Source of the DNA: Adhaeribacter aquaticus DSM 16391
GTDB taxonomy: Bacteria > Bacteroidota > Bacteroidia > Cytophagales > Hymenobacteraceae
Reading direction: 5' to 3'
Assembly: GCF_000473365.1 (NCBI RefSeq)
Contig: NZ_KI421517.1
Location: 1,579,606 to 1,643,605, forward strand
Length of the DNA stretch: 64,000 nt
In this document: in pieces, positions 25,101-45,037 of the stretch
How the letters are laid out: each line of letters opens with the position of its first letter
Position numbering within the stretch: the first letter of the stretch is position 1
The notes under the pieces: model-generated
What the model was told of the DNA's origin: nothing
The model's database searches: none
What the model saw: the letters and a program-made list of their open reading frames with translations, nothing else
Program-made: the position numbers and the translations under genes

Positions 25101-25804
25101 TCACGTTCGCCCACAGCCAACACGTTTCCTTTTCCATCGCCGAAAATCTGCACCTCTACGTGACGCGCATTGCTCACAAAACGCTCTAAAAACACACCGC
25201 TGTCGCTGAAGAAATTTTCGCCTAACCTTTTTACCGATTCAAAAGCCGCTATCAAACCAGCTTCATCTTCGCAACGGGTTAAACCAATACCGCCCCCACC
25301 GGCCGTACTTTTTAACATCACCGGATAACCTAACCGGTTGGCTTCCGCAATAGCTTCCTCTAAACTGCCTAATAAACCGGTACCGGGCGTTAAAGGCACG
25401 CCGGCCTCCTCGGCTATTTCGCGGGAAGTATGTTTCAACCCAAATTGCCGGATCTGATCGGCGGTAGGCCCCACAAAAGCAATACCTTCTTTCTCGCAAC
25501 GTTCGGCAAAAGCTAAGTTTTCGGATAAGAAACCATAACCGGGGATAATGGCCTGGGCACCGGTTTGCTTGGCAGCTGCAATAATTTTATCGCCTAGTAA
25601 ATAGCTTTCGGAGGCTGAATTTCCGCCTAAACAAACTGCTTCATCGGCGGCGGTTACGTGGTTGCTATACGTGTCGGCTTCGGAATAAACGGCTACACTT
25701 TTGATGCCCATTTTCCTTAGAGTACGGGCAATCCGTACGGCAATTTCGCCGCGGTTAGCAATAAGAACGGTATGAAATAAAGGTTGTGTATTAGTATTTT
25801 GCAT
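22112..25804 (-). CDS. Biotin-dependent urea/guanidine carboxylase
   Basis: A 1230-residue single-chain carboxylase. Order: biotin carboxylase with ATP-grasp (about 10-455; GGGGIGLTRCEDE, EVNTRLQVEHPVTE), AHS2/KipA-like carboxyltransferase half (about 459-768; YSTIQDYPGRIG), AHS1/KipI-like half (about 808-1035), and a C-terminal biotinyl domain with EAMKMEF (biotin-Lys1181). This is the architecture of urea carboxylase (without the fused amidase of the yeast enzyme), which makes allophanate from urea. In bacteria with the DUF1989 pair next to it, as here, related enzymes carboxylate guanidine. The choice between urea and guanidine cannot be made from domain order. A Glu/Val-rich tail ends the protein. 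Confidence 0.94.
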   Translation of the reverse strand: MQNTNTQPLFHTVLIANRGEIAVRIARTLRKMGIKSVAVYSEADTYSNHVTAADEAVCLGGNSASESYLLGDKIIAAAKQTGAQAIIPGYGFLSENLAFAERCEKEGIAFVGPTADQIRQFGLKHTSREIAEEAGVPLTPGTGLLGSLEEAIAEANRLGYPVMLKSTAGGGGIGLTRCEDEAGLIAAFESVKRLGENFFSDSGVFLERFVSNARHVEVQIFGDGKGNVLAVGERDCSLQRRNQKVVEETPAPNLPAATRAHLLDSAVKLGERVNYRSAGTVEYIYDPVRDEFYFLEVNTRLQVEHPVTEMVTGVDLVEWMILAACGRWEMPTQPLEPKGASIEVRIYAEDPVRDFQPSPGILTEVSFPENVRVDTWVETGTEVSPYYDPMIAKLIVHGEDRNDAIAKLQAALDATSLAGIATNLDYLRKIIKTDFFAKAEVSTGKLAQFTYVPPVIEVMQPGTYSTIQDYPGRIGYWDIGVPPSGPMDHYAFRLANRIVGNDASAAAIESTIIGPKLKFHTDAVVAITGATSKATLDGKPVAFYVPITVKAGQVLDLGKVETGCRTYLAVRNGIDVPLYLGSRSTFAMGQFGGHAGRPLKASDMLAISQPEIAACTTPAPVYEPAPAPKELIPEYATAWEIGVLYGPHGAPDFFQQEYIDTFFSTDWEVHYNSNRLGVRLIGPKPIWTRTDGGEAGLHPSNIHDSEYAIGTINFTGDMPVILAQDGPSLGGFVCPATIVKAEIWKIGQLKPGDTIRFKRVSFETALDLELAMDAAIEKLQPKAQITETPIKAPLNTVSECVLFSSEPNGNVPAVAYRQAGDKYILIEYGPNVLDFKLRFRVHALMDALSKNPVAGIIELSPGVRSLQIHYDGRKVTQSKLVETLVALEASLPPVEQMVVPSRIVHMPLAYEDKATLESVEHYRKSVRDKAPWLPSNIEFIRRMNGLPSQDDVRKVVFDTSYIILGLGDVYLGAPCGVPVDPRHRLITSKYNPARTFTVEGTVGIGGVYMCIYPMQGSPGGYQIVGRTLPVWNRFLKNKSFGEGKPWLLRFFDQIRYYPVTEEELLEMRKGFQQGKTIVRIEESTFDLGAYEKFLKDNEESIDQFKAKQKIAFDEEVEYWKREGFNKIAEEETKQQDTGTVEVQEGHEGVYSVINGSIWKVLVEEGQEVEVGQPILIIEAMKMEFTVASEFAGAISGILCQPGKQISSGDLLVTIEVKVTEEVEEVEEVVE

Positions 25805-25827
25805 GATGTGATTCGTCTGAATTAAAA

Positions 25828-27597
25828 TTAGGAAAGGGCTGGTGCAGCCGGTTGGGTTAAAGAGGCCAGGAAATTTTCCCAGCTAAAAAATTCCGTAATA
25901 TCTTCGGAAAAGGCAGCAATGTATTGTTCGCAGATAAATCCTTGCACCCAGCTACCATCGGCTAACTCTACTTTACCCAAACCCAGCGGATGCGGAATTT
26001 GCACCAGAAATTTTCCCAGGTTGCCTACCGGAATTTGCCAGATTTCTACTTCCACCGGTAATCCGGCTTGCCCTTCTTCCACCCGTACTACGCCTGGCTT
26101 CTTTTTGCCTTTCGGGTCTACCAAATACATGCGGTAATTGGCACTGGTGGAAGTGGTATAACTGTACTGCGCGTTCAGGTCGGTAAGCTGAGGCACTAAA
26201 GGTTGATTTCTTTTGTGCAACCCAGCTACGGCGATATCAATATAATCTGCCTTCTTTACTGATTCGACCTGCAATTGCTTTTGCAACCTTTTAGCCCAAA
26301 TGGCCAATTGCTGGTCTTTGCCTCCAGCGGCAATTAAGGTAACACCAAACGGTACACCTGCCTCGGTAAAACCTACCGGAATGGCTAAAGCACATAAACC
26401 TAGCAGATTTACATAATTAGTGTAATACCCCAGTTTTGTATTTAACTCAATAGGATTTTGCTGCACCTCGGCGATGGAAAAAATACCGGGAGCCGTTGGC
26501 ACTAATAGGAAGTCTGTTTCGGCAAATATATTTTGTGCCTCTTTCTTCAGCGCATCCAATTTATAAATGGCTTTGAAAGTATCGATAGCGGAGTAATTAG
26601 CGGCTTTACTTATAATCTCCCGTACTACCGGATTCATTTTTTCGGCTTGTTCAGCATAGAAAGTTCCTATGGCTGCCATCCGCTCGGCCACCCAGGGCCC
26701 ATGGTATAATAGTTTAGCCGCTTCCTGGAATACTTCAAAAGCAATTGATTTTGTCTCGAAAACTTCGGCAGCTTTATCTTTTACCCCATCAAACAAAACA
26801 GCATAATCAAATGCTTCCTCGAAATACAGGGATTTGGCCTCTGGTATAGCAACTTTTAGAGAGCGGGTCTCTTCTTTAGTTACTTCTATATTTTTAACTG
26901 ATTCTTTAGCAATACTAAATACTAGTTCGGCATCCTCAATGGAGTTGGCGAAAATAGAAACACAATCCAATGTTTTGCAGGCAGGTACTACGCCTTCGGT
27001 GCTTATTTCCCCAATAGTAGGCTTTAACCCTACCAGGTTATTAAAGCCTGCCGGAATCCTGCCGGAACCGGCAGTATCGGTACCTAAAGAGAAGGCGGCC
27101 ATGCCTAAAGCTACTGCCACCGCCGAACCAGAACTGGAACCGCCACTAATGTATTCTGGCTGAAAAGCATTTTTTACAGCACCATACGGGCTACGCGTTC
27201 CTACCAAACCGGTAGCAAACTGGTCCATATTGGTTTTGCCAATTAGAATAGCGCCTGCGGCTAATAACTGCTCCACTACCGGGGCATTTTTTTCTGGCGT
27301 ATAAGCAAACTCGGCGCAAGCTGCCGTTGTGGGTATACCAGCAACATCTATATTATCTTTTACGGCAAAAGGTATTCCGAATAACGGCAGTTTTTGACCT
27401 GCAGTCAATTTTGCCCGTGCTTCTGCTAATTGTCCGTAAACAGTTACTTTTTGGTTCAGGTGTATCCAGATGTTGTAATCTTGGAATTGCTGCGCGCGCA
27501 CAAAAATTTGATCGATTACCTGCTCCGGTATTAAACTACCGGTTAAGTATGCGTTCTGTAAAACCTGTATTTGCAGTTGATTTGTTTCTATTTCCAT
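25828..27597 (-). CDS. atzF: Allophanate hydrolase
   Basis: Amidase-signature enzyme that cleaves allophanate to ammonia and CO2. The 589 residues hold an amidase core with Lys80 (FAVKDNID), GGSSSGSA (cis-Ser about 154) and GTDTAGSGR (nucleophile Ser178; the TAGSGR form is typical of allophanate hydrolases), followed by a C-terminal AtzF-type domain (about 475-575). It is 23 bp upstream of the carboxylase in the same operon, whose product allophanate it would use directly. Confidence 0.93.
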   Translation of the reverse strand: MEIETNQLQIQVLQNAYLTGSLIPEQVIDQIFVRAQQFQDYNIWIHLNQKVTVYGQLAEARAKLTAGQKLPLFGIPFAVKDNIDVAGIPTTAACAEFAYTPEKNAPVVEQLLAAGAILIGKTNMDQFATGLVGTRSPYGAVKNAFQPEYISGGSSSGSAVAVALGMAAFSLGTDTAGSGRIPAGFNNLVGLKPTIGEISTEGVVPACKTLDCVSIFANSIEDAELVFSIAKESVKNIEVTKEETRSLKVAIPEAKSLYFEEAFDYAVLFDGVKDKAAEVFETKSIAFEVFQEAAKLLYHGPWVAERMAAIGTFYAEQAEKMNPVVREIISKAANYSAIDTFKAIYKLDALKKEAQNIFAETDFLLVPTAPGIFSIAEVQQNPIELNTKLGYYTNYVNLLGLCALAIPVGFTEAGVPFGVTLIAAGGKDQQLAIWAKRLQKQLQVESVKKADYIDIAVAGLHKRNQPLVPQLTDLNAQYSYTTSTSANYRMYLVDPKGKKKPGVVRVEEGQAGLPVEVEIWQIPVGNLGKFLVQIPHPLGLGKVELADGSWVQGFICEQYIAAFSEDITEFFSWENFLASLTQPAAPALS

Positions 27598-27611
27598 CGT
27601 TCAGGTTTAAC

Positions 27612-28262
27612 TTATTTATCCCAGATTAAAATTTCAATTGGCGTAGGATTGTAAGCATTACACGGGTTGTTTAATTGCGGGCAATTGCTGATTAAAACCG
27701 TGGTATGGGCAAGCGAAACCAACTCTACATATTTACCCGGAGCAGATACGCCATCATCAAATTTTAGCCCTCCTTCGGCTGTAACCGGCACATTCATGAA
27801 GAAGTTGATATTAGGAGCTAAATCCCGTTTAGTATAGTTCTTGCCAAACTTGGCCATTTGCAGCATAAAAGTATCGCGGCAGTTATGCATGTGCAGTTTT
27901 TCGTGGGCATACCGTACGGTATTGCTCTGGGCTGAGCAGGAACCACCAACGGTATCGTGACGACCACAGGTATCGGCCACTATTTCCAATAAAGGTTTAC
28001 CAGATTCGGCTTTTAAAACCGAGCCCGTGGTTAAGTAAATATTGCCTTGGGCGGCAATAGTAGCTACGGCACTATAATGGTCCTCCGGGTTTTCACTATC
28101 AAAAAATAAAGTATCGGCAGCCTGGTTACCTTCTAAATCCACTATCCGCAATACTTTTCCTGGCAGCAATTCGTGCATCCAGCCATCCCCGGCTAATATT
28201 GTTTTTGCATAAGTTGCTTCCTCGGCAACTCTTGTGCTTTTTACTTGCGTTAAAACAGCCAT
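27612..28262 (-). CDS. DUF1989 protein, urea-amidolyase-associated (UAAP2 / carboxyguanidine deiminase subunit)
   Basis: A 216-residue DUF1989 protein. It contains [12 protein letters not shown] (about residues 93-104), a Cys/His-rich metal-binding-type segment, and MHNCRDTF near 125. It is the second of two DUF1989 genes 14 bp upstream of atzF. Published work on such paired genes (Wackett laboratory) identified them as carboxyguanidine deiminase subunits: they turn carboxyguanidine to allophanate and ammonia. I assign this from family and synteny; catalysis is not proven here. Confidence 0.88.
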
Positions 28263-28273
28263 TTTTTATCTGC

Positions 28274-28993
28274 TTATTGTAATAGTGAATAATATTCCAG
28301 GGTATTTTCGAAAGCCCGGCGATTCTCCCCGCGGAAGTTGGCACAATAATCTGTTTCCAGGTCTACTGGCTCTGCATCAAAAACTTCTACCTGAACTGAT
28401 ACCGAGGTATAAGTTTTAGAAGTATCCAGGGGGTTTGGAGTATTGGAAAGAATTAGCAGTACATCCATTTCTGTGCGCAGGGTAACCATAGCGCCTTCCG
28501 TGCAATGGTTAGCATCAAAGAACATTTCGCCGGCATCGTTACAGAAAACTTTCGAGAACAAGTTTACATTGGGCATTATATCCCGCACCGATAAACCATT
28601 CCGTACTAATTCTACCGCAAAATTTTCCTGCCCACTGCGTAACCATTCGTTGCGCAATTCCTGGTAAGTAGTCTTACCATATTTAACATCTGTCAAGTCC
28701 CGGCTGGTATAGCCGCAAATAGTATCGTGCCAATCCAAAGTGTCTTCCACGATGCTGGCCAATACCCGTCCGTTATCACTCATTAAAGTATGACCTTTGG
28801 TTAAGCGGGAGGTATATTGACCTTTTAAAGTATCCGGCATATTATACCGCTCCGTCAGGTCAGCAGCATTATATAATAATAAAGACACGTTTGCTCCTTT
28901 TTCTAAGGCCGTAAATCGGACTGCTTTTCCTTTGCTAATTCTGCCGGACCATTTAGCGCCCGGACGAAGAATGGTGCTCCAATGTTTTCCCAT
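28274..28993 (-). CDS. DUF1989 protein, urea-amidolyase-associated (UAAP1 / carboxyguanidine deiminase subunit)
   Basis: A 239-residue DUF1989 protein, the first gene of the operon, 11 bp before its paralogue. Motifs: SIVEDTLDWHDTICGYTS (residues 100s) and a later DANHCTEGAM. The DUF1989 pair plus allophanate hydrolase plus biotin carboxylase is the full guanidine-to-ammonia set. The operator-like palindromes lie 46 and 68 bp upstream of its start. Confidence 0.88.
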   Translation of the reverse strand: MGKHWSTILRPGAKWSGRISKGKAVRFTALEKGANVSLLLYNAADLTERYNMPDTLKGQYTSRLTKGHTLMSDNGRVLASIVEDTLDWHDTICGYTSRDLTDVKYGKTTYQELRNEWLRSGQENFAVELVRNGLSVRDIMPNVNLFSKVFCNDAGEMFFDANHCTEGAMVTLRTEMDVLLILSNTPNPLDTSKTYTSVSVQVEVFDAEPVDLETDYCANFRGENRRAFENTLEYYSLLQ

Positions 28994-29055
28994 ATCACTT
29001 AATAGAAGTATATTTTAATTTGATTGCGCCACAACACTTAAGCAGCGTCATTAAA

Positions 29056-29067
29056 TTACTTAAGTAA
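29056..29067. promoter_or_regulatory. Regulon palindrome, site A (TTACTTAAGTAA)
   Basis: Perfect 12-bp palindrome whose centre is 68 bp upstream of the DUF1989 operon start. A partial copy (CTTAAG at 29037-29042) lies 22 bp, about two helical turns, closer to the gene. Confidence 0.7.
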
Positions 29068-29428
29068 AAGTATGGGAGTAATTTTTAAAAGGCAAGAAAA
29101 ATGTTAAGTATTTTAATTTTTAATAGCTTTTAAACAAAAACAATAAAAATCCCTTATGTATGCCTTAAATTTTAAGCTTCTTTTTAAAATTATTACGCAT
29201 TTATGCTAACATAAGTCAATATTCAAAGCCTGACTTACAACAACCTTATTTTAACCATTTCTTACAAACTTCTTCTTGACCCTATAAAGGAAGTAGCGCC
29301 TATCATAAATACCTTTGTGTAGTAGGACCAAATTTAAATCAGGAATCATAAAAATCAGGTTACCTAATTAGGCTGTTAAATTTTGTAAATCACCTAACCC
29401 AATTATATTCTAAAAATTTTTCTTAACT

Positions 29429-29440
29429 TTACTTAAGTAT
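29429..29440. promoter_or_regulatory. Regulon palindrome, site B (TTACTTAAGTAT)
   Basis: One mismatch to site A; it ends 12 nt before the histidine kinase ATG. The upstream TAACTTTA (29424-29431) resembles the -7 element, so the site would overlap the start of transcription, as expected for autoregulation. Confidence 0.65.
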
Positions 29441-29452
29441 ACCAAGTTTAGA

Positions 29453-31267
29453 ATGATATTCAACGATTTAAACTCAAGGAAAGAACTTAAGACCTTTAAA
29501 ACTTTTACCCGCTTATACATTTTAGCGCTTTCGGCCATAGCACTTATATCTGTTTTTAGCCAGGTTCTTATTCAAATGCACTTAAGCAACCAGGCCAACG
29601 ATGCCCACATAATAAATTATGCTGCCCGACTAAGAACCTATAGCCAATCGCTTACCAAATTAGCCCTGCTTTTAGAAAAAGGAGAAGACCTGGAAACTAT
29701 TAGCCGGGATTTTAACAACACCCTTAAACAATGGCAAAGCTTACATGAGGGCTTATTACAAGGAAGTGAATTTCTTAACATTCGGAAAAACGACCGGGAG
29801 GAGCTTACTCAAATGTACAAGGTTGTGCAGGAGCCTTATGAAGAAATAATAAAAGCCGCCAGCCAATTATCATTTGAAATAGCGAGCAAAAAGCCTTTCG
29901 AGGAGTTAAAAATAACGCCTTATGTAAAAAGAATACTTGCCCATGAGAAGTCATATTTGCTTACAATGGACCTTATTGTATTTGATTATGATAGATTTTC
30001 CCGAAACAACCTATACCAACTAAAGAAAATTGAATATTGGTTGCTAGGCATTTTATTACTACTACTGGTACTGGAGGCATTATTTATATTTTACCCGCTT
30101 TCTAAACGTATCCGGGAAATTATAAGTGGCTTAACTGAATCAGAAACCCATGCTACCTCCCTGGCCAGAGAATTACAGAATGCCAACATATCTCTGGAAA
30201 GCTCTAATAAAGAATTAAAAGAAACGAACCTAGCATTGGAAAGAGCTACGTACCTGGTAAAAACAGATGCCGCTGGCAAGATTCTTTATGCCAATGATAA
30301 ATATTGCCATGTAACCAGATACAACATGAGCGAGCTTATTGGCAAACCCTTATTTTATAATAGTTTTGGAGAAGAAGAAAGCATCATTTACCAGCACATC
30401 CGGGATCAGGACCGCCATAAAGAAGTTTGGCAGGGAGAAATTTTTGACCGCGCATCTGATGGCACCGGATTCTGGCTGGATGTCACCATGATGCCCATTG
30501 TAGATAACAAAGGTTGCCTGTACCAATACCTGGTAGTTTCCAATGACATTACTAAACGGAAGAATACCGAACAAGAGCTGCAGCAATTAATGGAAGAGCA
30601 GTTAAAAGCCAAAAGCATGGAACAAAAGATAAAGTCTTATTCCATAATTGTGGGCCAGGAAAATGAACGCAAACGGGTAGCAGCTGAAATACACGATGGC
30701 ATTGGCCAGATGCTCACCAGTATGCGCATGCGGTTAGAAATGCTGGAGAACAAACGCCCGGATCTGGAACAGGAAATGGGCGGCGTAAATAAACTCCTGA
30801 AATCCATAATAGACGAAACCCGCCGTATTTGCTCCGACTTATTACCCAGCGTTTTAGGTGATTTTGGGTTAAAGGCCGCTGTAACTGAACTATTAAGAAG
30901 CGTAGAAGAAGAAGCCAACATTGTTATAAACCTGGATGAAGAAATAGCCCCTCAATATTTAAGCAAAGAAATAGAAATGGGGGTTTACCGGATTTTACAG
31001 GAATCTTTAAACAACGCCGTAAAACACGCTCAAACAGAAAGCATGGAGGTATCTTTATGTAATAATCAGGATAAACTTGTACTTTCGGTTACCGACTATG
31101 GAAAGGGTTTTAATTTTAAAGAAGAAACCTTATATATACAGGACATGGCTAAAAAAAATAATGGACTACGCATTATGAAGGAACGAGCTGAAATGATTGG
31201 CGGGAAATTAAAAATAAGCACAAAGAAAAACGAAGGAACTACTATTCATTTAGACATAGCTTTATAA
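29453..31267 (+). CDS. Sensor histidine kinase with PilJ/NarX-type sensing domain
   Basis: A 604-residue membrane kinase. TM1 is about 21-42; a periplasmic helical domain follows with a NarX P-box-like segment (INYAARLRTYSQSLTKLALLL, about 52-72) of the PilJ/NIT family; TM2 is about 195-215; then a coiled coil, a PAS domain (about 258-370), HisKA_3 with phospho-His414 (ERKRVAAEIHDGIGQ) and a HATPase. NarX-type kinases sense nitrate or nitrite; here the neighbours suggest a nitrogenous ligand such as guanidine or urea. It is 6 bp from its response regulator and divergent from the catabolic operon. Confidence 0.9.
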   Translation: MIFNDLNSRKELKTFKTFTRLYILALSAIALISVFSQVLIQMHLSNQANDAHIINYAARLRTYSQSLTKLALLLEKGEDLETISRDFNNTLKQWQSLHEGLLQGSEFLNIRKNDREELTQMYKVVQEPYEEIIKAASQLSFEIASKKPFEELKITPYVKRILAHEKSYLLTMDLIVFDYDRFSRNNLYQLKKIEYWLLGILLLLLVLEALFIFYPLSKRIREIISGLTESETHATSLARELQNANISLESSNKELKETNLALERATYLVKTDAAGKILYANDKYCHVTRYNMSELIGKPLFYNSFGEEESIIYQHIRDQDRHKEVWQGEIFDRASDGTGFWLDVTMMPIVDNKGCLYQYLVVSNDITKRKNTEQELQQLMEEQLKAKSMEQKIKSYSIIVGQENERKRVAAEIHDGIGQMLTSMRMRLEMLENKRPDLEQEMGGVNKLLKSIIDETRRICSDLLPSVLGDFGLKAAVTELLRSVEEEANIVINLDEEIAPQYLSKEIEMGVYRILQESLNNAVKHAQTESMEVSLCNNQDKLVLSVTDYGKGFNFKEETLYIQDMAKKNNGLRIMKERAEMIGGKLKISTKKNEGTTIHLDIAL

Positions 31268-31273
31268 TATATT

Positions 31274-31927
31274 ATGACCAAAATCAAGGTTTTACTGGCT
31301 GATGACCATGAAATTTTTCGGAACGGTGTTCGAACGTTGATTGATAATGAACCTGACATGACGGTGGTTGGCGAAGCATCCAATGGGGAAGAAGTAATTG
31401 CCAAAGTCGAAACCTTAGAACCAGATGTGCTGATTATGGACATCCGCATGCCCAGGCTAAACGGAATAGATTCAAGTAAACTTTTGCTGAATAAAAACCC
31501 AAACCTCAAAATCTTAATATTTTCACTTTATGATAACGTTGAATACGTAGTACAAGCGTTGAACCTGGGCGCAAAAGGTTATTTATTAAAAGATACCAGC
31601 AATAAAATTTTTCTGGATGCTATTCGGGCGGTTTATAAAAATCAGTTTTATTATATAGGCGATGTTTCTAACAGCGTAATCAGTTATTACAAAACCCATG
31701 GCCAACAGGAACCGGAAGTAAAAAACTCGGCAAACGTGGCAGAGCACTTGTCTAAAAAAGAGCAGGAAATAATTCAGTTAATAAAAGAGGGCAAAAACAG
31801 TAAAGAGATTGCTGATATATTAGGGAATAGCGTACGGACCATTGATGCGCATCGGTATAATATTATAAAAAAATTTGGAGCCAGAAGCATGGAAGAAGTT
31901 ATTAGTCAGATAGAAAGAATAGCGTAA
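31274..31927 (+). CDS. LuxR/NarL-type response regulator
   Basis: A 217-residue regulator: REC domain with phospho-Asp56 (LIMDIRMP), linker, and LuxR-type helix-turn-helix (SKKEQEIIQLIKEGKNSKEIAD, then TIDAHRYNI). It starts 6 bp after the kinase and is surely its partner. It is the best candidate to bind the palindromes found in this region. The pair ends at the terminator 31930. Confidence 0.93.
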   Translation: MTKIKVLLADDHEIFRNGVRTLIDNEPDMTVVGEASNGEEVIAKVETLEPDVLIMDIRMPRLNGIDSSKLLLNKNPNLKILIFSLYDNVEYVVQALNLGAKGYLLKDTSNKIFLDAIRAVYKNQFYYIGDVSNSVISYYKTHGQQEPEVKNSANVAEHLSKKEQEIIQLIKEGKNSKEIADILGNSVRTIDAHRYNIIKKFGARSMEEVISQIERIA

Positions 31928-31929
31928 AT

Positions 31930-31963
31930 AAAAAAGGAGAAGTAGTTATACTTCTCCTTTTTT
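31930..31963. terminator. Bidirectional terminator
   Basis: Arms AAAAAAGGAGAAGTA / TACTTCTCCTTTTTT with a 4-nt loop, between the convergent response-regulator and porin-like genes. Confidence 0.92.
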
Positions 31964-31982
31964 ATTTACTAATAAGTTACGT

Positions 31983-32705
31983 TTAAAAAAAGCTCATTCT
32001 CACCATTACATTGAACATATCTAATTGGGTATGGTAGCTTAAAGTACCCGTTAAAGGCAAGCTAAAGCTATCCGAAAATTTTATAGACTTTGTAGTATTA
32101 AAACCCACATTTAATAGACCGGCTTGTTCAGCAGCATGCCAGTTCGGACTTTCTGTAAAAACCACGCCCACAAATGGCTCAAAGCCTATTCCATTTACAT
32201 TAAATTTATAAGCCACCTCACCATAAGTAGATTTTTCCGGATCATTCGCCACATTTATAGAAGTATAGATCCGGATTGGAAACTTAGTACCTAAATACTG
32301 AATACCAGCTTCGGTCGTGTGCGAAAAACTTTCCGGGTTCTTGCGGTAGTCGCTTATTCTTACCGGATCGTAAGGATAATAATAATGTGTTAAACTCGGT
32401 GTAATAGTGCCTGCCCCTACTGCAATGTCATAAGTTAACAAGGTCATGATGTTGTTAAAATTGTACTTAAAAGAATAGGATCCTAAAAAGGAAAGTTTCA
32501 CATTCCGATGACTTAGAATTAAGGTAGGCTGTAGATTAGGCCCCTGATCAAGCGGAATCCCGCGCCAGAGAAAGTTATTCAGAATATCAACACCTGCATC
32601 TACCGTAAATTTTGGTTTAGCTGCAACAGAATCAATATGTTGCGCAAAAGATTTAAAAGACAAGCATAGAGCCAGCAAAAGAAGGAGTAAAAGTGTTTTT
32701 TTCAT
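31983..32705 (-). CDS. Porin-like outer-membrane protein (TorF-like)
   Basis: A 240-residue protein with a signal peptide (ending SFAQ), and alternating aromatic strands typical of an outer-membrane barrel, ending in Phe. The early segment NNFLWRGIPLDQGPNLQPTL resembles the TorF family of putative porins (vRG near the first strand). In this neighbourhood it could let the nitrogen source cross the outer membrane, which is inference. Its start has no operator-like palindrome. Confidence 0.68.
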   Translation of the reverse strand: MKKTLLLLLLLALCLSFKSFAQHIDSVAAKPKFTVDAGVDILNNFLWRGIPLDQGPNLQPTLILSHRNVKLSFLGSYSFKYNFNNIMTLLTYDIAVGAGTITPSLTHYYYPYDPVRISDYRKNPESFSHTTEAGIQYLGTKFPIRIYTSINVANDPEKSTYGEVAYKFNVNGIGFEPFVGVVFTESPNWHAAEQAGLLNVGFNTTKSIKFSDSFSLPLTGTLSYHTQLDMFNVMVRMSFF

Positions 32706-32939
32706 GCTTCATAAAAGTTAAAGGGTTAAGAATAATATATATGTGTGAGCGTGGAGCTGGCAGCAGAGCAAAGTTTTAAACAAATAAGACAAAACCTTAA
32801 CTCGTAAAATTTTGGCAATAGAATTCCCTCCATGAGAAAATCTCATTTTAAAAATTTCACTTGGAATTGTATTCTTAAAAGTGCCTAGAAAATATTTTTA
32901 AGACCGACAAGGAGGCACACCATAATAAAGCTTCTTTGT

Positions 32940-34241
32940 CTACTTTTTTACTAGATATGAATTACTTGCTTTAGCAATAGGTTGAGCATTTAACTTAACC
33001 TTATCAACGGATCCTGGCACCAACTGCTCCGAATGCCACAACACATTAATCTGACCTTCAGAATCACTTTCTCCCACCATAATTGGCTTATTTAAACTCA
33101 AGGCCTGATCGTTTATTTGCACCATACCAGCCGGTGAATTAAATTCTAACCCATACAAAGCTTTTTCAATAAGTATTCTATCAAAAGAACCAGCTTTTTC
33201 TACTGCCTTTTTCCATAAATAAATTCCGGTATACGCACGGTTTATAGCCTCTCCGGTTACTCGGTCTACACCCTCCGGTAATTCATTGATGGCACAAAAC
33301 AATCTAAAATCACTTACAAACCGAATATTTTTATCGGTATCCACGGATTGAAAGTAATTGCGACTGAAAAGGTGACCAATTATAAATTCGGCACCCATTT
33401 GCCTCAGCTCATCTTCAGAAATGGTAAACGACATTATCGGACACCCCAGCGAAGACAACCCCTGGTTGGCAAATTCTTTAAAAAAGGCAAGGTTTACAGC
33501 CCCCTGCATGGTATTTAAGACACAGGCTTTTCCATCAGTAGAATATCTTTTAATGGCTACAATTTCATCAGCCAAGTCTTCGCTTGTAACATCAACCAGA
33601 CTTTCCCTAATGTTTTCCCTTGCTATACCCTGACTAAGTAAATAAGCTTTTATTATCTTATTAGCTCCTTTAGAATACGCATCCTCTGTACCCATCAAAT
33701 AAAATTTTGAGTAAGGATGCTTTGGCAAGCCCAACAAATATTGTATGCCTGGCTTTAATAGCTGATCCGGAGACGAACCCAAACAAATTAACCCCGGGGA
33801 AAAATTTCTTTCACCAACATAATCACTCAAATCAAAAAGCAAGCTATTGCTTTGTTCTACTTTAGGTAATATATAAGCTCGCGCACCTACCGGCAGATTA
33901 CAAAAAACTGCCGAAACCATTGATTTATTAACCAATTGTACCAAACTGCCTTTATATACATTATCCTTCGACTCGGCATCCACCGCTATTATTTCAACCT
34001 GCTTACCAAGAACGCCTCCATCATTATTTATCTCTTCAACAGCCATAGCAGCTGCATCCCGCATAGACGCCTCTGTAACACTTCTAGCACCTGTCTTAGA
34101 GAACAACACTCCTATTCGCACTGAACTTTCTAAAGAATCCCTAGTGCTGCTTTTATCAACAGGACTTCTACAGGAAAAAATAAAAAGCGTGAGCCATGCA
34201 ATCCTAAATGTAAACGTTCTTATGCTTTTCAAATACTTCAT
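32940..34241 (-). CDS. Amide/urea-type periplasmic binding lipoprotein (UrtA/AmiC-like), orphan
   Basis: A 433-residue type I periplasmic-binding-protein-fold lipoprotein (Cys24, segment IFSC). It opens with IGVLFSKTGARSVTEASMRDAAAMAVEEIN, the pattern of UrtA/AmiC-type amide or urea receptors, and runs on with Peripla_BP_5-like features. No membrane permease lies beside it, unlike a true transporter subunit. Together with the NarX-like kinase it may act as a ligand-capture or sensing protein. Divergent from the ABC transporter operon with shared regulatory DNA. Confidence 0.83.
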   Translation of the reverse strand: MKYLKSIRTFTFRIAWLTLFIFSCRSPVDKSSTRDSLESSVRIGVLFSKTGARSVTEASMRDAAAMAVEEINNDGGVLGKQVEIIAVDAESKDNVYKGSLVQLVNKSMVSAVFCNLPVGARAYILPKVEQSNSLLFDLSDYVGERNFSPGLICLGSSPDQLLKPGIQYLLGLPKHPYSKFYLMGTEDAYSKGANKIIKAYLLSQGIARENIRESLVDVTSEDLADEIVAIKRYSTDGKACVLNTMQGAVNLAFFKEFANQGLSSLGCPIMSFTISEDELRQMGAEFIIGHLFSRNYFQSVDTDKNIRFVSDFRLFCAINELPEGVDRVTGEAINRAYTGIYLWKKAVEKAGSFDRILIEKALYGLEFNSPAGMVQINDQALSLNKPIMVGESDSEGQINVLWHSEQLVPGSVDKVKLNAQPIAKASNSYLVKK

Positions 34242-34330
34242 TCCCCTACAGCAGATTTTATAACTAGAAATAATACTTTAAAACTCCTGCATTGAATACT
34301 TACGCAATGTTAGTAAATCTTTTAACACAA

Positions 34331-34342
34331 TTACCTAAGTAA
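34331..34342. promoter_or_regulatory. Regulon palindrome, site C (TTACCTAAGTAA)
   Basis: One mismatch to the consensus; centre 95 bp upstream of the orphan binding-protein start (34241, minus strand). Confidence 0.65.
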
Positions 34343-34626
34343 ACTAAAATTTTTTAAAGAATTATCTGTTTTGAAATTTAAACTTACAAAATAATAAATT
34401 TTTAAAAAAAACTTAATGATTTGAGTAAAAATTTAAATACTATACAATATAAAATCCTTCATAAGCAAATCATCTTTAAAGCCTAACACTTTATCATTAT
34501 CTTAAGTTTTTAAAGGAAGGCATTTTTTTAAGGCCAATACTTTCTTTTCACATCATTTACACCTCTTACCAGCTAATTTTTAATAGGGTATTTAAAATTT
34601 TTAGATTTTTTCTAACCAACACTTGC

Positions 34627-34638
34627 TTACTTAAGTAA
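34627..34638. promoter_or_regulatory. Regulon palindrome, site D (TTACTTAAGTAA)
   Basis: Exact copy of site A; centre 102 bp upstream of the ABC operon ATG 34735, and 34 bp from site E. Confidence 0.7.
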
Positions 34639-34660
34639 TTATTCCAACCTTTACCATTAG

Positions 34661-34672
34661 TTGCTTAAGCAA
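34661..34672. promoter_or_regulatory. Regulon palindrome, site E (TTGCTTAAGCAA)
   Basis: Perfect palindrome with compensating changes; centre 68 bp upstream of the ABC operon ATG, the same distance as site A from its gene. Confidence 0.68.
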
Positions 34673-34734
34673 GTATATATTTTATCAATGTATATATCCC
34701 TAGTATTCATAAATAAATTTAATTAAAGAGTCCC

Positions 34735-35841
34735 ATGAACAACTTTAAAAGAATCAGTCAATTTTTCATCCTGTTGCTTTTAACAGGGTTTATTGCAGCC
34801 TGCAGCTCTCCTTCTGGTCAGGAATCGAACGCATCATCTTCTACTTCCGGAAAATCAAAAAAATTTAAAGTAGCCTGGTCTATCTATTCTGGCTGGCAGC
34901 CTTGGGATTATGCCAACCAATCTAAAATTTTAGAAAAGTGGGCTAAAAAATATGGGATTGAGATTGAATTGATAAAAATGGATTACATTCCTTCTGTTGA
35001 AGCCTATGTAGCCGGCCAGGTAGATGCCTGTGTAATGACTAATATGGAAGCGCTGGATATGCCGGCAGCCTCCGGTGTAACCAGTACTGCTTTAATATTA
35101 GGAGACTATTCTAATGGCAACGATGCCTTATTAACCCGCGATAACTTACAGGTAAAAGATCTGGTTGGTAAAGAAGTAAACCTGGTAGAGCTTTCTGTCT
35201 CGCACTACATTTTATCCAGAGCATTGGAGAAAAATGGTTTAAAAGAATCAGATGTTACTATTGTAAATACCAGTGATAGTGATATTGCTCCTGCTTTTAT
35301 TTCCAACAATAGCCAAAAAGCAGTAATAACCTGGAACCCGCTGATCATGGAAATTAAAAAGCAACCCGATGTAAAACAAGTATTTGCTTCTTCTTCTATT
35401 CCGGGCGAAATAATGGACCTGATGATTGTAAAAACCAATGTGCTAAAAGATAATCCGGAATTAGGAAATGCTTTAACCGGTGCCTGGTACGAGGTAATGG
35501 CCATTATGAAAAAAGAAGATAAGGCAACTGAAGAAGCTTTAGCCATCATGGCAGAATCTGCGGGATGCAGTTTGCAAGAATACAAAGACCAGCTAAAAAC
35601 TACAGCTATGTTTTATTCTCCAAAAAGCGCCTTAAACTATACCACTAGCAAAGCAGTCATTCAAAGCATGGATTATGTAAGAAAGTTTTGCTTTAGCCAT
35701 GGGTTGTTAGGCGAAAACGCTACTTCTTTCGATCAAATCGGAATTCAATATCCTAACGGTGAAATTCAGGGAGACAAAAATAACATTCAATTGTATTTTG
35801 ATTCTTCCTTTATGGAAAAAGCAGCTAACGCCCAGCTTTAG
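34735..35841 (+). CDS. Urea/guanidine-type ABC transporter substrate-binding lipoprotein
   Basis: A 368-residue lipoprotein (Cys23, FIAAC) with a type II binding-protein fold. The segment AWSIYSGWQPWDYANQS and the MTNMEALDMPAASGVTS loop match the binding protein of the ABC system always found beside urea carboxylase genes. Such transporters are thought to bring in urea or guanidine-type substrates. First gene of an operon with permease, ATPase, deoxyhypusine-synthase-like enzyme and a membrane protein; intergenic gaps are short. Confidence 0.88.
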   Translation: MNNFKRISQFFILLLLTGFIAACSSPSGQESNASSSTSGKSKKFKVAWSIYSGWQPWDYANQSKILEKWAKKYGIEIELIKMDYIPSVEAYVAGQVDACVMTNMEALDMPAASGVTSTALILGDYSNGNDALLTRDNLQVKDLVGKEVNLVELSVSHYILSRALEKNGLKESDVTIVNTSDSDIAPAFISNNSQKAVITWNPLIMEIKKQPDVKQVFASSSIPGEIMDLMIVKTNVLKDNPELGNALTGAWYEVMAIMKKEDKATEEALAIMAESAGCSLQEYKDQLKTTAMFYSPKSALNYTTSKAVIQSMDYVRKFCFSHGLLGENATSFDQIGIQYPNGEIQGDKNNIQLYFDSSFMEKAANAQL

Positions 35842-35882
35842 GTCTGCTTAAAATCATTTCTCACTCTAAAATAAGGATAGCT

Positions 35883-36680
35883 ATGTTGTCGGTAACCAAA
35901 AGATCATCCTGGACAGACACCCTCCTGTCAATATTCCTGTTTGTTCTCATTATAATTTTGTATCAGTATTTTGCCCACCAGCGTCATTTACTCAACCCTC
36001 ATGATAAACTGGTTCCAACTTTTGCTCAGATGCTGGATGCCTTTACCCGCTCGACTTTTGAGCCCGACCGCAATGGGGTATATCGCTTATTAGACGACAC
36101 ACTGGCTAGTGGTCAACGGGTATTGATTAGCATGGTGTTTGTTTTTGGAGGTGTGTTAATGGGAGCTTATATGGGGTTATTCCCTGTAATGGATAAATTA
36201 TTTTATAAATTCTTTCTATTCTTTGATAAAATTCCGGCCTTGGCAATTCTTCCTATATTATTCATTTTCTTTGGTTTAGGTGAAGTTTCAAAAGTAGCCC
36301 TTATTGTTATTGGCGTGGTTCCTACTATTATACTGGATACCTATTTACGGGCAAAGGCCTTTCCGCAAGAGCAAGTAATAAAGGCCATTACCATGAGCGC
36401 CAGCAAATCCCAGATTATCTTCAAGATCATTCTGCCAAAGATTTTCCCCATGGCATTAGATTCCATCCGGCTCAATTTTAAAGCCATTGTTCTGTTTCTT
36501 ATTTCCGGAGAGGCACTGGCCGCAACAGCGGGCTTAGGTTACCGGATATTTGTGGTGCGGCGGTACATGGCTATGGATATCATTATCTCTTATGTTATCT
36601 GGATTGGCTTACTCTCCTACCTGATTGATGCAGGAATATGCTTATGGATTAAAAAACAGTATCGCTGGTACAACAAATAA
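35883..36680 (+). CDS. ABC transporter permease of the urea/guanidine operon
   Basis: A 265-residue integral membrane subunit with about six helices. The conserved EAA-type cytoplasmic loop is around residues 160-190 (VIKAITMSASKSQIIFKIILPKIF), as in binding-protein-dependent permeases of the taurine/nitrate type. It lies 41 bp after the binding-protein gene and 11 bp before the ATPase gene. Confidence 0.9.
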   Translation: MLSVTKRSSWTDTLLSIFLFVLIIILYQYFAHQRHLLNPHDKLVPTFAQMLDAFTRSTFEPDRNGVYRLLDDTLASGQRVLISMVFVFGGVLMGAYMGLFPVMDKLFYKFFLFFDKIPALAILPILFIFFGLGEVSKVALIVIGVVPTIILDTYLRAKAFPQEQVIKAITMSASKSQIIFKIILPKIFPMALDSIRLNFKAIVLFLISGEALAATAGLGYRIFVVRRYMAMDIIISYVIWIGLLSYLIDAGICLWIKKQYRWYNK

Positions 36681-36691
36681 TAATAGAACAC

Positions 36692-37579
36692 ATGACAGGA
36701 AAATATATACTTGAAGTAGAAGGCGCCTCTCAGCAGTACTTCGACCAATCAGAAAAAAGCTTTCAGGTTTTAAATAACATTAATCTCCAAATCCGGGAAG
36801 GTGAATTTGTAACCATTGTGGGACCCACCGGCTGCGGCAAATCTACCTTACTGCGCATGATTTTGGGTTCTGAGCGTCCCTCGGCCGGTAACGTATTGAT
36901 GGATCAAAAACCAATTCTAAAACCAGACCGGAACCGGGGGGTAGTTTTTCAAAAATATTCCTTATTTGATAATTTAACCGTGAGGCAAAATGTAAGAATA
37001 GGATTAGAACTGGAGAACTTCAGCATTTTTGGCAACCTCTTAAACACTGTTTTCCCGGGTTGGAAATATGAAGAATACAGCACTTTAGTAGATGAATACT
37101 TAGAAAGAGTAGGCCTGCTCCAACACGGGGATAAATACCCTTATCAGCTATCGGGCGGTATGCGCCAACGGGTTGCTATTGCCCAAGCCATGATAATGAA
37201 ACCTAAGGTTTTGCTAATGGACGAGCCTTTTGGTGCTTTAGATGCGGGCACAAAAGACCAGATGCATGCCTTTATGCTGGAACAATGGCAACAAACTGGT
37301 CAGACCATACTTTTTGTAACGCACGACCTGGAGGAAGCTGTTTATTTAGGTACCCGGGTAATTGTTTTGTCCCAGTATTACCAGGGAGCCAATGGTGCTA
37401 AAATTGTAAAAGACTTTAATACCCCGTGGCCACATCCCCGCGACCAATCAGTTAAGGAAGAAGAACTATTCCAGGATATGATTAAAACCATCCGCAACCA
37501 GGGATTAAATTCAAATTACCTGCTAAACCAGGAAGAATTTGACCTTTCTCATGCCGATGCCATTCAATTAGCTAGTTAA
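36692..37579 (+). CDS. ABC transporter ATP-binding protein
   Basis: A 295-residue ATPase. Walker A is VGPTGCGKST (about residues 43-52), the Q-loop FQKYSLF follows, then the signature LSGGMRQRVAIAQA, Walker B VLLMDEPFGALD and the H-loop FVTHDLEEAVYLG. It belongs to the nitrate/taurine-type importer ATPases. The C-terminal 60 residues are specific to this group. It is 21 bp before the deoxyhypusine-synthase-like gene. Confidence 0.95.
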   Translation: MTGKYILEVEGASQQYFDQSEKSFQVLNNINLQIREGEFVTIVGPTGCGKSTLLRMILGSERPSAGNVLMDQKPILKPDRNRGVVFQKYSLFDNLTVRQNVRIGLELENFSIFGNLLNTVFPGWKYEEYSTLVDEYLERVGLLQHGDKYPYQLSGGMRQRVAIAQAMIMKPKVLLMDEPFGALDAGTKDQMHAFMLEQWQQTGQTILFVTHDLEEAVYLGTRVIVLSQYYQGANGAKIVKDFNTPWPHPRDQSVKEEELFQDMIKTIRNQGLNSNYLLNQEEFDLSHADAIQLAS

Positions 37580-37600
37580 AATAGAAAGAACTATAAACAA

Positions 37601-38572
37601 ATGACAATTACTCAATTTTTAAAAACGAATTTTAAACATTTCAATGCTGCCGCCTTAGTTGATGCAGCAGAAGCATACAAACTACATGTAGACAATGGCC
37701 ATAAAATGATGGTAACCCTGGCTGGTGCTATGTCTACAGCTGAATTAGGAATTACTTTAGCCGAAATGATCCGGGAAGACAAAATCCACGCCATTAGCTG
37801 CACCGGAGCAAACCTGGAAGAAGACGTATTTAATTTGGTAGCGCACAACTTTTACGAGCGCATTCCTAATTACCGGGATTTAACGCCCCAGGATGAGGAA
37901 GATTTACTAAACCGGCACATGAACCGGGTAACCGATACCTGCATACCAGAAATGGAAGCCATGCGCCGGATAGAAAACGTAGTTTTAAAATACTGGCAAA
38001 AGGCCGATACCGAAGGTAAAAGGTATTTCCCACACGAGTTCATGTATCAGATTTTACTTTCCGGTGAACTAGATCCATCTTTCCAGATTGACCCGAAAAA
38101 CAGCTGGTTATTAGAAGCAGCCAAGAAAAACCTACCTATGGTAGTACCAGGTTGGGAAGACTCTACCCTGGGTAATATTTATGCTGGCCACGTTATCAGC
38201 GGCGATATTAAAAATGTACATACTGTTAGAACAGGTATTGAATACATGATGGAACTGGCCGATTACTACACCAAAACTGCCACTGCCGAGAGCCCGATTG
38301 GCTTCTTCCAGATTGGCGGAGGAATCGCTGGCGACTTCCCAATTTGTGTGGTTCCAATGCTGCACCAGGATTTACAGCGGCCTGAGGTACCTCTATGGGG
38401 TTACTTCTGCCAAATATCTGATTCTACCACTAGCTATGGCTCCTTCTCTGGCTGTATCCCAAATGAGAAAATAACCTGGGGGAAATTAAGCAAGGACACA
38501 CCTAAATTCATTATTGAATCTGATGCTACTATAGTAGCTCCTCTTGTTTTTGCATTAGTGTTGGGAAAATAA
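37601..38572 (+). CDS. Deoxyhypusine-synthase-like protein
   Basis: A 323-residue deoxyhypusine synthase family member. It has the NAD-binding-type segments SCTGANLEED (about 66-75) and GGGIAGDFPI (239-248), and the catalytic lysine segment ITWGKL (Lys295). The His-rich loop of the eukaryotic enzyme is not kept. Bacteria have no eIF5A, so such proteins probably move aminobutyl groups between polyamines (homospermidine-type reactions). In this operon it could link agmatine or polyamines to guanidine; that is only a hypothesis (see findings). Confidence 0.9.
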   Translation: MTITQFLKTNFKHFNAAALVDAAEAYKLHVDNGHKMMVTLAGAMSTAELGITLAEMIREDKIHAISCTGANLEEDVFNLVAHNFYERIPNYRDLTPQDEEDLLNRHMNRVTDTCIPEMEAMRRIENVVLKYWQKADTEGKRYFPHEFMYQILLSGELDPSFQIDPKNSWLLEAAKKNLPMVVPGWEDSTLGNIYAGHVISGDIKNVHTVRTGIEYMMELADYYTKTATAESPIGFFQIGGGIAGDFPICVVPMLHQDLQRPEVPLWGYFCQISDSTTSYGSFSGCIPNEKITWGKLSKDTPKFIIESDATIVAPLVFALVLGK

Positions 38573-38583
38573 AAATTAAAGGT

Positions 38584-39009
38584 ATGCCGCTCGAGATACG
38601 AAAATCAAAAATAAGAAATGGTATAAATGTTTTATTCAGTATCTCGGCGCTAGCCTTTTATTTTTTTCTGGTTTTTTCTGAGGAAAATAACCCGAATACA
38701 TTTATAACCTCGGTACCAGGACTTGTTTTGATCTTATTAACGACACTTTTTATAAGAGACTTCCTGGATACTACTCCTATATACATTTTAACCGAGGAAG
38801 GCTTACATAATAAGGCAAAAGATTTTTTCGTAGCCTGGAAAGATATCCAGGATTTTAAACTTTATTTTATCCAGGAGCGCTATGTAGGCATTCAAGTCTT
38901 ACAGCTACAAGATATTAAAAAGCAAACCGTGTCTACCCTGGTACTAACTGGCACAGACTTTAATGAACAAAATTTACAGGATTATATAAACAAAAATATC
39001 CAGAAATAG
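38584..39009 (+). CDS. STM3941-like small membrane protein
   Basis: A 141-residue protein with two N-terminal membrane helices (about 14-32 and 41-57) and a soluble C-terminal beta-rich part (VAWKDIQDFKLYFIQERYVGIQVLQL), the layout of STM3941-type proteins with a PH-like domain. Function unknown. It is 11 bp after the deoxyhypusine-synthase-like gene, so it is the last gene of the transporter operon. Confidence 0.6.
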   Translation: MPLEIRKSKIRNGINVLFSISALAFYFFLVFSEENNPNTFITSVPGLVLILLTTLFIRDFLDTTPIYILTEEGLHNKAKDFFVAWKDIQDFKLYFIQERYVGIQVLQLQDIKKQTVSTLVLTGTDFNEQNLQDYINKNIQK

Positions 39010-43108: not shown

Positions 43109-43244
43109 AGGTTCTTCATACTTACTAAAGTAAAATACATCCATTTTAAAGCATTTATTTTTCATTCATTTAAGAATTAAGTTATTACTATTTATCAGTC
43201 ATTCCTGCGTATTTCCCGTACTTCCAAAGTAAATTAAATTATTC

Positions 43245-44786: not shown

Positions 44787-44859
44787 TGATCCCGCTGGGA
44801 TTCGAACCCAGGACCCATACATTAAAAGTGTATTGCTCTACCAGCTGAGCTACAGAATC
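44787..44859 (-). tRNA. tRNA-Lys (anticodon TTT), copy 2
   Basis: The 73-nt minus-strand sequence has acceptor stem GATTCTG/CGGGATC, D arm with CAGCTGGTAGA, anticodon loop CTTTTAA (anticodon TTT), T arm with GGTTCGAAT and discriminator A. CCA is not encoded. Identical in sequence to the copy at 44965. Confidence 0.96.
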
Positions 44860-44964: not shown

Positions 44965-45037
44965 TGATCCCGCTGGGATTCGAACCCAGGACCCATACAT
45001 TAAAAGTGTATTGCTCTACCAGCTGAGCTACAGAATC
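44965..45037 (-). tRNA. tRNA-Lys (anticodon TTT), copy 1
   Basis: Same 73-nt sequence as 44787-44859, in the same orientation and 105 bp upstream of it. A promoter with -33 and -7 elements lies at 45084-45115, so both copies come from one transcript. Confidence 0.96.

Follow-up and report, generated by a model that had tools for sequence, protein, structure and literature searches.

The closest described systems to the one presented here are the two-component systems NarX-NarL and NarQ-NarP, the carboxylase operons under guanidine riboswitches, the clusters that join the urea transporter UrtABCDE to urease, and the Pantoea operon of urea carboxylase and urtABCDE. The NarL heptamer gives operator halves of the form TAC...GTA, and UAAP1 and UAAP2 act as a carboxyguanidine deiminase. 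PMC12186494 describes a carboxyguanidine deiminase enzyme in guanidine operons and gives Asp as the mark of guanidine carboxylases and Asn as that of urea carboxylases; PMC10392092 reports eight residues conserved in the urea pocket of UrtA. Here we analyze a 64,000-nucleotide stretch of the Adhaeribacter aquaticus DSM 16391 genome (contig NZ_KI421517.1, positions 1,579,606 to 1,643,605; hereafter the window), in which a 12-bp palindrome, TTACTTAAGTAA, and close variants of it precede four units of a nitrogen-scavenging gene cluster that encodes a urea carboxylase family enzyme, an ATP-binding cassette (ABC) transporter and a NarXL-like kinase/regulator pair. We consider it very likely that this palindrome is the operator through which the neighboring two-component system would control the four units, and that the system ancestrally governed urea uptake and urease.

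The five boxes are intergenic, rare, conserved and co-inherited with the kinase/regulator pair. They occupy two divergent regions, one between UAAP1 and the kinase gene (28994-29452, 459 bases, GC content 0.27) and one between the UrtA-like gene and the ABC operon (34242-34734, 493 bases, GC content 0.24), with centers 18.5 to 102.5 bp from the genes. An initial sequence-only reading of this DNA had placed them before the DUF1989/carboxylase operon, the kinase gene, the orphan binding-protein gene and the ABC operon, and all five were recovered at those positions (Table 1); the box before the kinase gene suggests autoregulation. The same reading held that such a 12-mer should not occur twice in 64 kb by chance, and the genome agrees. 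Rather than being frequent genome-wide, exact TTACTTAAGTAA occurs at two places in 5,168,091 bases, both in this cluster, and TTACNTANGTAA at seven, three of them here. At one mismatch or fewer there are 49 genome places, four of which fall within the 5.6 kb of the boxes, against an expectation of 0.05 (49 x 5.6/5168). In the two intergenic regions, these four sites compare with a shuffle mean of 0.047, and none of 20,000 dinucleotide shuffles reached four. The other 45 places divide into 27 inside and 18 between open reading frames (ORFs) as called by a simple ORF caller. A proposed symmetry, by which boxes 1 and 5 each stand 68 bp from the start codon of their gene, is literally true in the window (both centers at 68.5 bp) but is not conserved in the related cluster of genome G659, where two boxes stand at 39.5 and 62.5 bp on one side and a single box at 75.5 bp on the other.

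G659 comes from a different order within the class and has 12 of the 13 cluster genes, with gene order unchanged and proteins 51-87% identical; where the small final gene would stand, G659 encodes a protein of similar size with no BLAST match to that of the window. A box variant precedes each of the same four units: TCACTTAAGTAA and TTACTTAGGTAA, 23 bp apart, upstream of UAAP1, TTACCTAAGTAA upstream of the kinase gene, ATACTTAAGCAA (two mismatches) upstream of the UrtA-like gene, and a single TTACTTAGGTAG upstream of the ABC operon. Footprinting could not be extended to the same family, where the searches turned up no further copy of the cluster. The window kinase was matched at E 1e-60 in one of 200 family genomes (its own), the ABC-operon binding protein in one of 390 order genomes, the carboxylase in two of 395 phylum genomes (its own and G659) and the kinase at E 1e-100 in one of 150 genomes of G659's genus (G659 itself). 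Among the samples searched, the cluster at 22112-39009 appears sporadic, with its own genome and one of another order as carriers, and it was probably acquired horizontally. A further 80 loci, gathered through the ABC-operon binding protein, were discarded for footprinting; their kinase and regulator matches were only 25-28% identical, and a count of exact copies found no box.

The kinase itself led to more informative relatives. It has matches at E 1e-75 in 35 of 380 genomes of the order, its own included. In 11 other order genomes the kinase is 48-57% identical, and in all 11 it lies within a cluster of urt (urea ABC transporter) and urease genes. An ortholog on a Persicobacter plasmid (44% identical) also lies in such a cluster, in which UrtA, UrtB, UrtC, UrtD and three urease proteins were confirmed by NCBIfam. 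The box recurs in these clusters. All four g68 genomes carry exact TTACTTAAGTAA between ureD and the kinase gene and the pair ATACGTAAGTAT / ATACGTAAGTAC, 31 bp apart, upstream of the porin-urtA unit. Pairs also precede the transport unit in G270 (30 bp apart) and G449 (34 bp apart), matching the 34 bp of the window; one box of the G449 pair lies inside a predicted ORF whose start may be annotated too early. Upstream of the porin-urtA unit, G323 has TTACGTAAGTAA, and the four g37 genomes have TTACTTACGTAA and TTACGTAAGTAA, while Persicobacter has TTACGTAAGTAA both before ureD and 316 bp before the porin-urtA unit, with TTACTTAGGTAA at the kinase start. As the positions beside the central TA vary among sites, the usual form of the box is TTAC-N-TA-N-GTAA (core TAC-N-TA-N-GTA). 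Conserved boxes upstream of several units, in G659 as in the urt/urease clusters, lend support to the proposal of the sequence-only reading that the four promoters form one regulon, and the sites have not proved private to one genome. What that reading did not contain is the apparent ancestral tie of the pair to urea transport and urease, or the spacing of the two boxes before the ABC operon. As a separate observation, exact TTACTTAAGTAA also occurs at 15113-15124 of L197, inside the Persicobacter urtB frame and 155 bp past its predicted start, which may be chance or an internal site.

We ranked all 4096 palindromic 12-mers by their matches in 11,814 intergenic bases from the seven loci other than the window, with one genome representing the four g68 and one the four g37. 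TTACTTAAGTAA ranked first at one mismatch or fewer (9 matches; next 7) and second at two or fewer (19, behind AATTAATTAATT with 22), and among the 30 palindromes of equal half-site composition its 19 matches at two mismatches or fewer were followed by 8. Across eight loci, the window included, the pattern WTACNTANGTAW has 19 matches in 13.2 kb of cluster intergenic DNA, none in 23.7 kb of flanking intergenic DNA and 5 in 212 kb of ORFs.

Several observations weigh against the operator reading. The WTACNTANGTAW pattern was drawn from the sites themselves, and the motif of the sequence-only reading, at one mismatch or fewer, gives 13, 1 and 2 matches in the same cluster intergenic, flanking and ORF DNA. 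At two mismatches or fewer, 15 matches are found across the whole window where 9.8 would be expected, and 9 of 100 shuffles reach 15; with so little enrichment, weak matches alone are uninformative, and it is the strong sites and their conservation that carry the claim. The reversed control of TTACNTANGTAA likewise has seven places in the A. aquaticus genome, and in G659 TTACNTANGTAA has eight genome-wide (two in the cluster) against 19 for its reversed control. The pair spaced 30-34 bp is absent before the G659 ABC operon, where there is one box, and the ureD-kinase region of G323, G332 and G271 holds nothing better than four mismatches. The window count at two mismatches, and the other AT-rich palindromes that equal or exceed TTACTTAAGTAA at that level, would suit an origin of the boxes as chance products of AT-rich intergenic DNA. 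Set against this are the rarity of exact copies, the shuffles, the footprint in seven other loci, the contrast between cluster and flanking DNA, and the conservation of boxes at the same promoters across unrelated sequence backgrounds, in counts that are alignment-free. Chance is, in our estimation, scarcely credible.

Further points of this kind remain. Beyond the cluster, 13 of the 18 inter-ORF places are found no more than 250 bp upstream of an ORF, as single sites that could be additional targets or chance occurrences. Paralogs have almost the same recognition helix as the regulator, for which reason we dropped the helix as a tie between box and regulator. Around nine paralogous kinases of the own order there are four sites at one mismatch or fewer in 173 kb, against about 1.6 predicted from the own-genome rate; one of these is inside a kinase gene, the others are kilobases away, and none is next to a kinase start. 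The shared helix and the outlying single sites could mean that the boxes, though genuine operators, serve a different transcription factor whose gene lies elsewhere, such as a nitrogen-status regulator, with the two-component pair acting at other sites. The boxes, however, accompany the kinase/regulator pair at loci whose target genes differ, and no other transcription-factor family was matched among the 12 cluster proteins that were family-searched (the permease excluded, and two without any Pfam match). As a control, we took seven urease-positive genomes of the same order, of which two carry the kinase and five have no kinase or regulator match in the 20 kb read. Those five urease loci have no site at one mismatch or fewer and three at two mismatches. 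Three of them are GC-rich (0.56-0.60) and the kinase may sit elsewhere in those genomes, so this control is only modest. Control by an unlinked factor nonetheless appears distinctly improbable to us. The LuxR-type regulator encoded from 31274, which the sequence-only reading had put forward, is the likely binder, and the box is very likely its docking site, since it recurs with the same pair beside urea-breakdown genes of distant relatives.

Kinases of 27-37% identity were also considered as a wider family and are treated here as paralogs. In 30 loci of G659's family (kinases about 30-37% identical; loci searched with window proteins) there are four sites at one mismatch or fewer against about five predicted, and two Persicobacter paralogs (27-28% identical) have one site; the nine own-order paralog loci have no urease match and only ABC ATPases at 25-31%. 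One TTACGTAAGTAA lies at 14100-14111 of L217, about 3.3 kb from a paralogous kinase gene (31% identical) of another family. A palindrome-like stretch at kinase codons ~46-56 in g68, G270 and G323 was ruled out as an operator, as it lies within the ORF and encodes a conserved Y-L-S.

A 12-bp palindrome could also form a hairpin, and the boxes might act in RNA as a riboswitch, attenuator or terminator stem. This is difficult to reconcile with the variable distance from box to gene and with the Rfam search, in which the only matches in the window at gathering score are two tRNAs and no guanidine riboswitch appears. Of six Rfam matches at E <=1 within 28900-34800, none is a riboswitch and all are far below gathering scores. 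We therefore see almost no likelihood that the boxes work at the RNA level. Five of those six weak matches, at 31919-32009, coincide with a stem at 31929-31972 between the convergent regulator and exported-protein genes, which is probably a two-way terminator.

Turning to the pair itself, a regulator with receiver and GerE domains adjoins a HisKA_3 kinase, and the closest solved structures to the regulator are VraR and NarL. The family scores of the Nar proteins are not reached by either partner (kinase against NarQ, 89 bits with a cut-off of 553, and against NarX, 74 with 578; regulator against NarL, 134.6 with 250). Residues 1-250 of the kinase were modeled with AlphaFold from the single sequence; the model contains four long helices, with a mean predicted local distance difference test (pLDDT) score of 76, and its top Foldseek match is NarQ (E 0.012, template modeling [TM] scores 0.29 and 0.41). 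Since these TM values are low and designed helical proteins score similarly, the likeness to NarQ rests mainly on sequence profiles. The P-box-like stretch of the kinase keeps an Arg, the residue with a role in the Nar sensors, and the same stretch is common to paralogs in other contexts, so it is not diagnostic of nitrate. The profile likeness, the weak one in fold and the retained Arg would all fit the same regulon under a different signal, with the sensor reading nitrate, nitrite or general nitrogen status. Given that the closest orthologs all lie beside urea genes and that the P-box-like stretch recurs in paralogs elsewhere, we think such a signal improbable.

In a FastTree phylogeny of 14 kinases rooted by nine paralogs, the carboxylase-linked kinases of the window and G659 form a pair (support 1.00) that nests inside the urease-linked kinases; they group with G449, G323, G270 and g68, and the urease kinases of Persicobacter and g37 fall outside (support 0.90). 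From this nesting, the simplest reading would be that the module first served urt and urease and was later joined to the carboxylase route.

The signal can be approached through the carboxylase and the UrtA-like protein. The carboxylase scores 1953 bits against TIGR02712 (cut-off 1304). Aligned to the K. lactis enzyme, its Asn713 falls at the residue that is Asn1330 by count, which we take to be the number of the marker residue there. This position probably corresponds to the Asp/Asn substrate marker described in PMC12186494. All 27 readable carboxylases from the 31 UcaP loci with a carboxylase match have Asp here (four were unmatched by the pattern). Instead of this Asp of guanidine carboxylases, Asn is found in the window, the K. 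lactis enzyme, G659, Pantoea and Niveispirillum. Asn is likewise present in two nearer relatives, at 63% identity; the one from Pantoea shares its operon with urtABCDE, and no UAAP match appears in either stretch. The urea-type Asn713 carboxylase of the window is nonetheless encoded alongside UAAP1 and UAAP2. Their retention points to a signal other than urea, as these proteins accompany guanidine carboxylases. Conversely, Asn713 and the closest kinase orthologs outside G659, all of them beside urea genes, are evidence for a urea signal. On balance, we favor urea or a closely related compound as inducer, with guanidinium also a candidate.

The UrtA-like protein reaches 299 bits against TIGR03407, below the cut-off of 492.75, while Persicobacter UrtA scores 558. 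Judged by the eight pocket residues given in PMC10392092, it has none of them in the window or in G659, with Asp at three of the eight positions in both, whereas each of 12 UrtAs from urease clusters has all eight. Its ligand has probably changed. No urease alpha subunit was found in the genome at E 1e-150, nor any UrtC match, the latter a weak negative because the search had no positive control. Together with the lost pocket, these absences point to sensing, or to the binding of another ligand, as the most likely role of the UrtA-like protein. One tentative idea, which we think rather unlikely though less so than a nitrate signal, is that it acts as a receptor in the periplasm, with a urea pocket remodeled by three Asp to bind a cation such as guanidinium, and that it signals through the NarX-like kinase. 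If true, a protein-based, extracytoplasmic mode of guanidine sensing would replace the guanidine riboswitch, having evolved by conversion of a urea-sensing module.

Under the two-component reading that we prefer, the NarX-like kinase would phosphorylate the regulator when the substrate, or its complex with a periplasmic binding protein, is present, the signal presumably being urea or a close relative such as guanidinium. The regulator would then dock as a dimer on each palindrome, probably as two dimers, which may cooperate, on the pair before the ABC operon. It would be expected to activate, rather than repress, four units: the carboxylase operon, the kinase and regulator genes, the UrtA-like/exported-protein unit and the ABC-transport operon. 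In the window and G659, the module would have been rewired from urt and urease to the route of urea carboxylase and allophanate hydrolase.

Table 1. Genes and palindromic boxes of the cluster, in window coordinates; mismatches are relative to TTACTTAAGTAA.
Feature	Coordinates	Strand	Remarks
Urea carboxylase family enzyme	22112..25804	-	Asn713 at the presumed urea/guanidine marker position
Allophanate hydrolase	25828..27597	-	above curated cut-off
UAAP2 (DUF1989)	27612..28262	-	above curated cut-off
UAAP1 (DUF1989)	28274..28993	-	first gene of carboxylase operon; above curated cut-off
Box 1	29056..29067		exact TTACTTAAGTAA, 0 mismatches; upstream of UAAP1/UAAP2/allophanate hydrolase/urea carboxylase
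Box 2	29429..29440		TTACTTAAGTAT, 1 mismatch; center 18.5 bp 5' of kinase ATG
Sensor histidine kinase	29453..31267	+	PilJ/NarX-type sensor, PAS, HisKA_3, HATPase
LuxR/NarL-type response regulator	31274..31927	+	Response_reg and GerE; proposed box binder
Putative exported/outer-membrane protein	31983..32705	-	predicted from sequence; downstream of UrtA-like gene; matches no Pfam family
Orphan UrtA-like periplasmic binding protein	32940..34241	-	0/8 urea-contact residues of UrtA
Box 3	34331..34342		TTACCTAAGTAA, 1 mismatch; upstream of orphan UrtA-like gene
Box 4	34627..34638		exact TTACTTAAGTAA, 0 mismatches; distal member of pair upstream of ABC operon
Box 5	34661..34672		TTGCTTAAGCAA, 2 mismatches, symmetric; proximal member of pair, 34 bp from box 4
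UcaP-type ABC substrate-binding protein	34735..35841	+	TIGR03427
ABC permease of UcaP operon	35883..36680	+	identified by its place between the binding-protein and ATPase genes
ABC ATP-binding protein, nitrate/taurine type	36692..37579	+	in ABC operon
Deoxyhypusine-synthase-like protein	37601..38572	+	in ABC operon
Small hypothetical protein	38584..39009	+	end of ABC operon

Other features of the window touch on this module less directly. The putative exported protein has a counterpart in G659 at 59% identity. The deoxyhypusine-synthase-like protein is the most conserved in the cluster (87% identical in G659). Outside the cluster, TTACTAAAGTAA at 43122-43133, between ORFs and 117.5 bp before an ORF of 415 codons, is probably a chance occurrence. 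The two tRNA genes, at 44787-44859 and 44965-45037 on the minus strand, score equally.

We found no description of this regulon among the titles and abstract openings listed from an open-access library. Our results offer a concrete regulon, with an operator and a candidate regulator, for urea use in Bacteroidota. They also suggest that one sensing module has been placed on two unrelated breakdown routes for urea-like nitrogen, urease in one case and a biotin carboxylase with allophanate hydrolase in the other. The control, and the ligand, of carboxylase pathways that have no guanidine riboswitch thereby become testable.

Each of the described systems shares part of this arrangement. NarX-NarL and NarQ-NarP have in common with it a PilJ-type sensor, a HisKA_3 kinase, a LuxR-type regulator and operator halves TAC...GTA, but the window pair scores far below the family cut-offs, has a PAS domain, is linked to urea genes and goes with a compact 12-bp palindrome. 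The carboxylase operons under guanidine riboswitches have the same carboxylase, UAAP1 and UAAP2, allophanate hydrolase and UcaP-type ABC transporter, whereas the window has a two-component system, an Asn rather than an Asp carboxylase and no riboswitch that we could find. The Pantoea operon of urea carboxylase and urtABCDE holds the best plasmid carboxylase relative among the matches listed (63.6% identity), with the Asn marker, and differs in its annotated GntR regulator, its complete urt transporter and its lack of a UAAP match. Finally, the UrtABCDE-urease clusters of same-order relatives and Persicobacter carry the same kinase/regulator pair and box; of such a cluster the window, with no match to the urease alpha subunit or UrtC, retains only the diverged UrtA-like protein.

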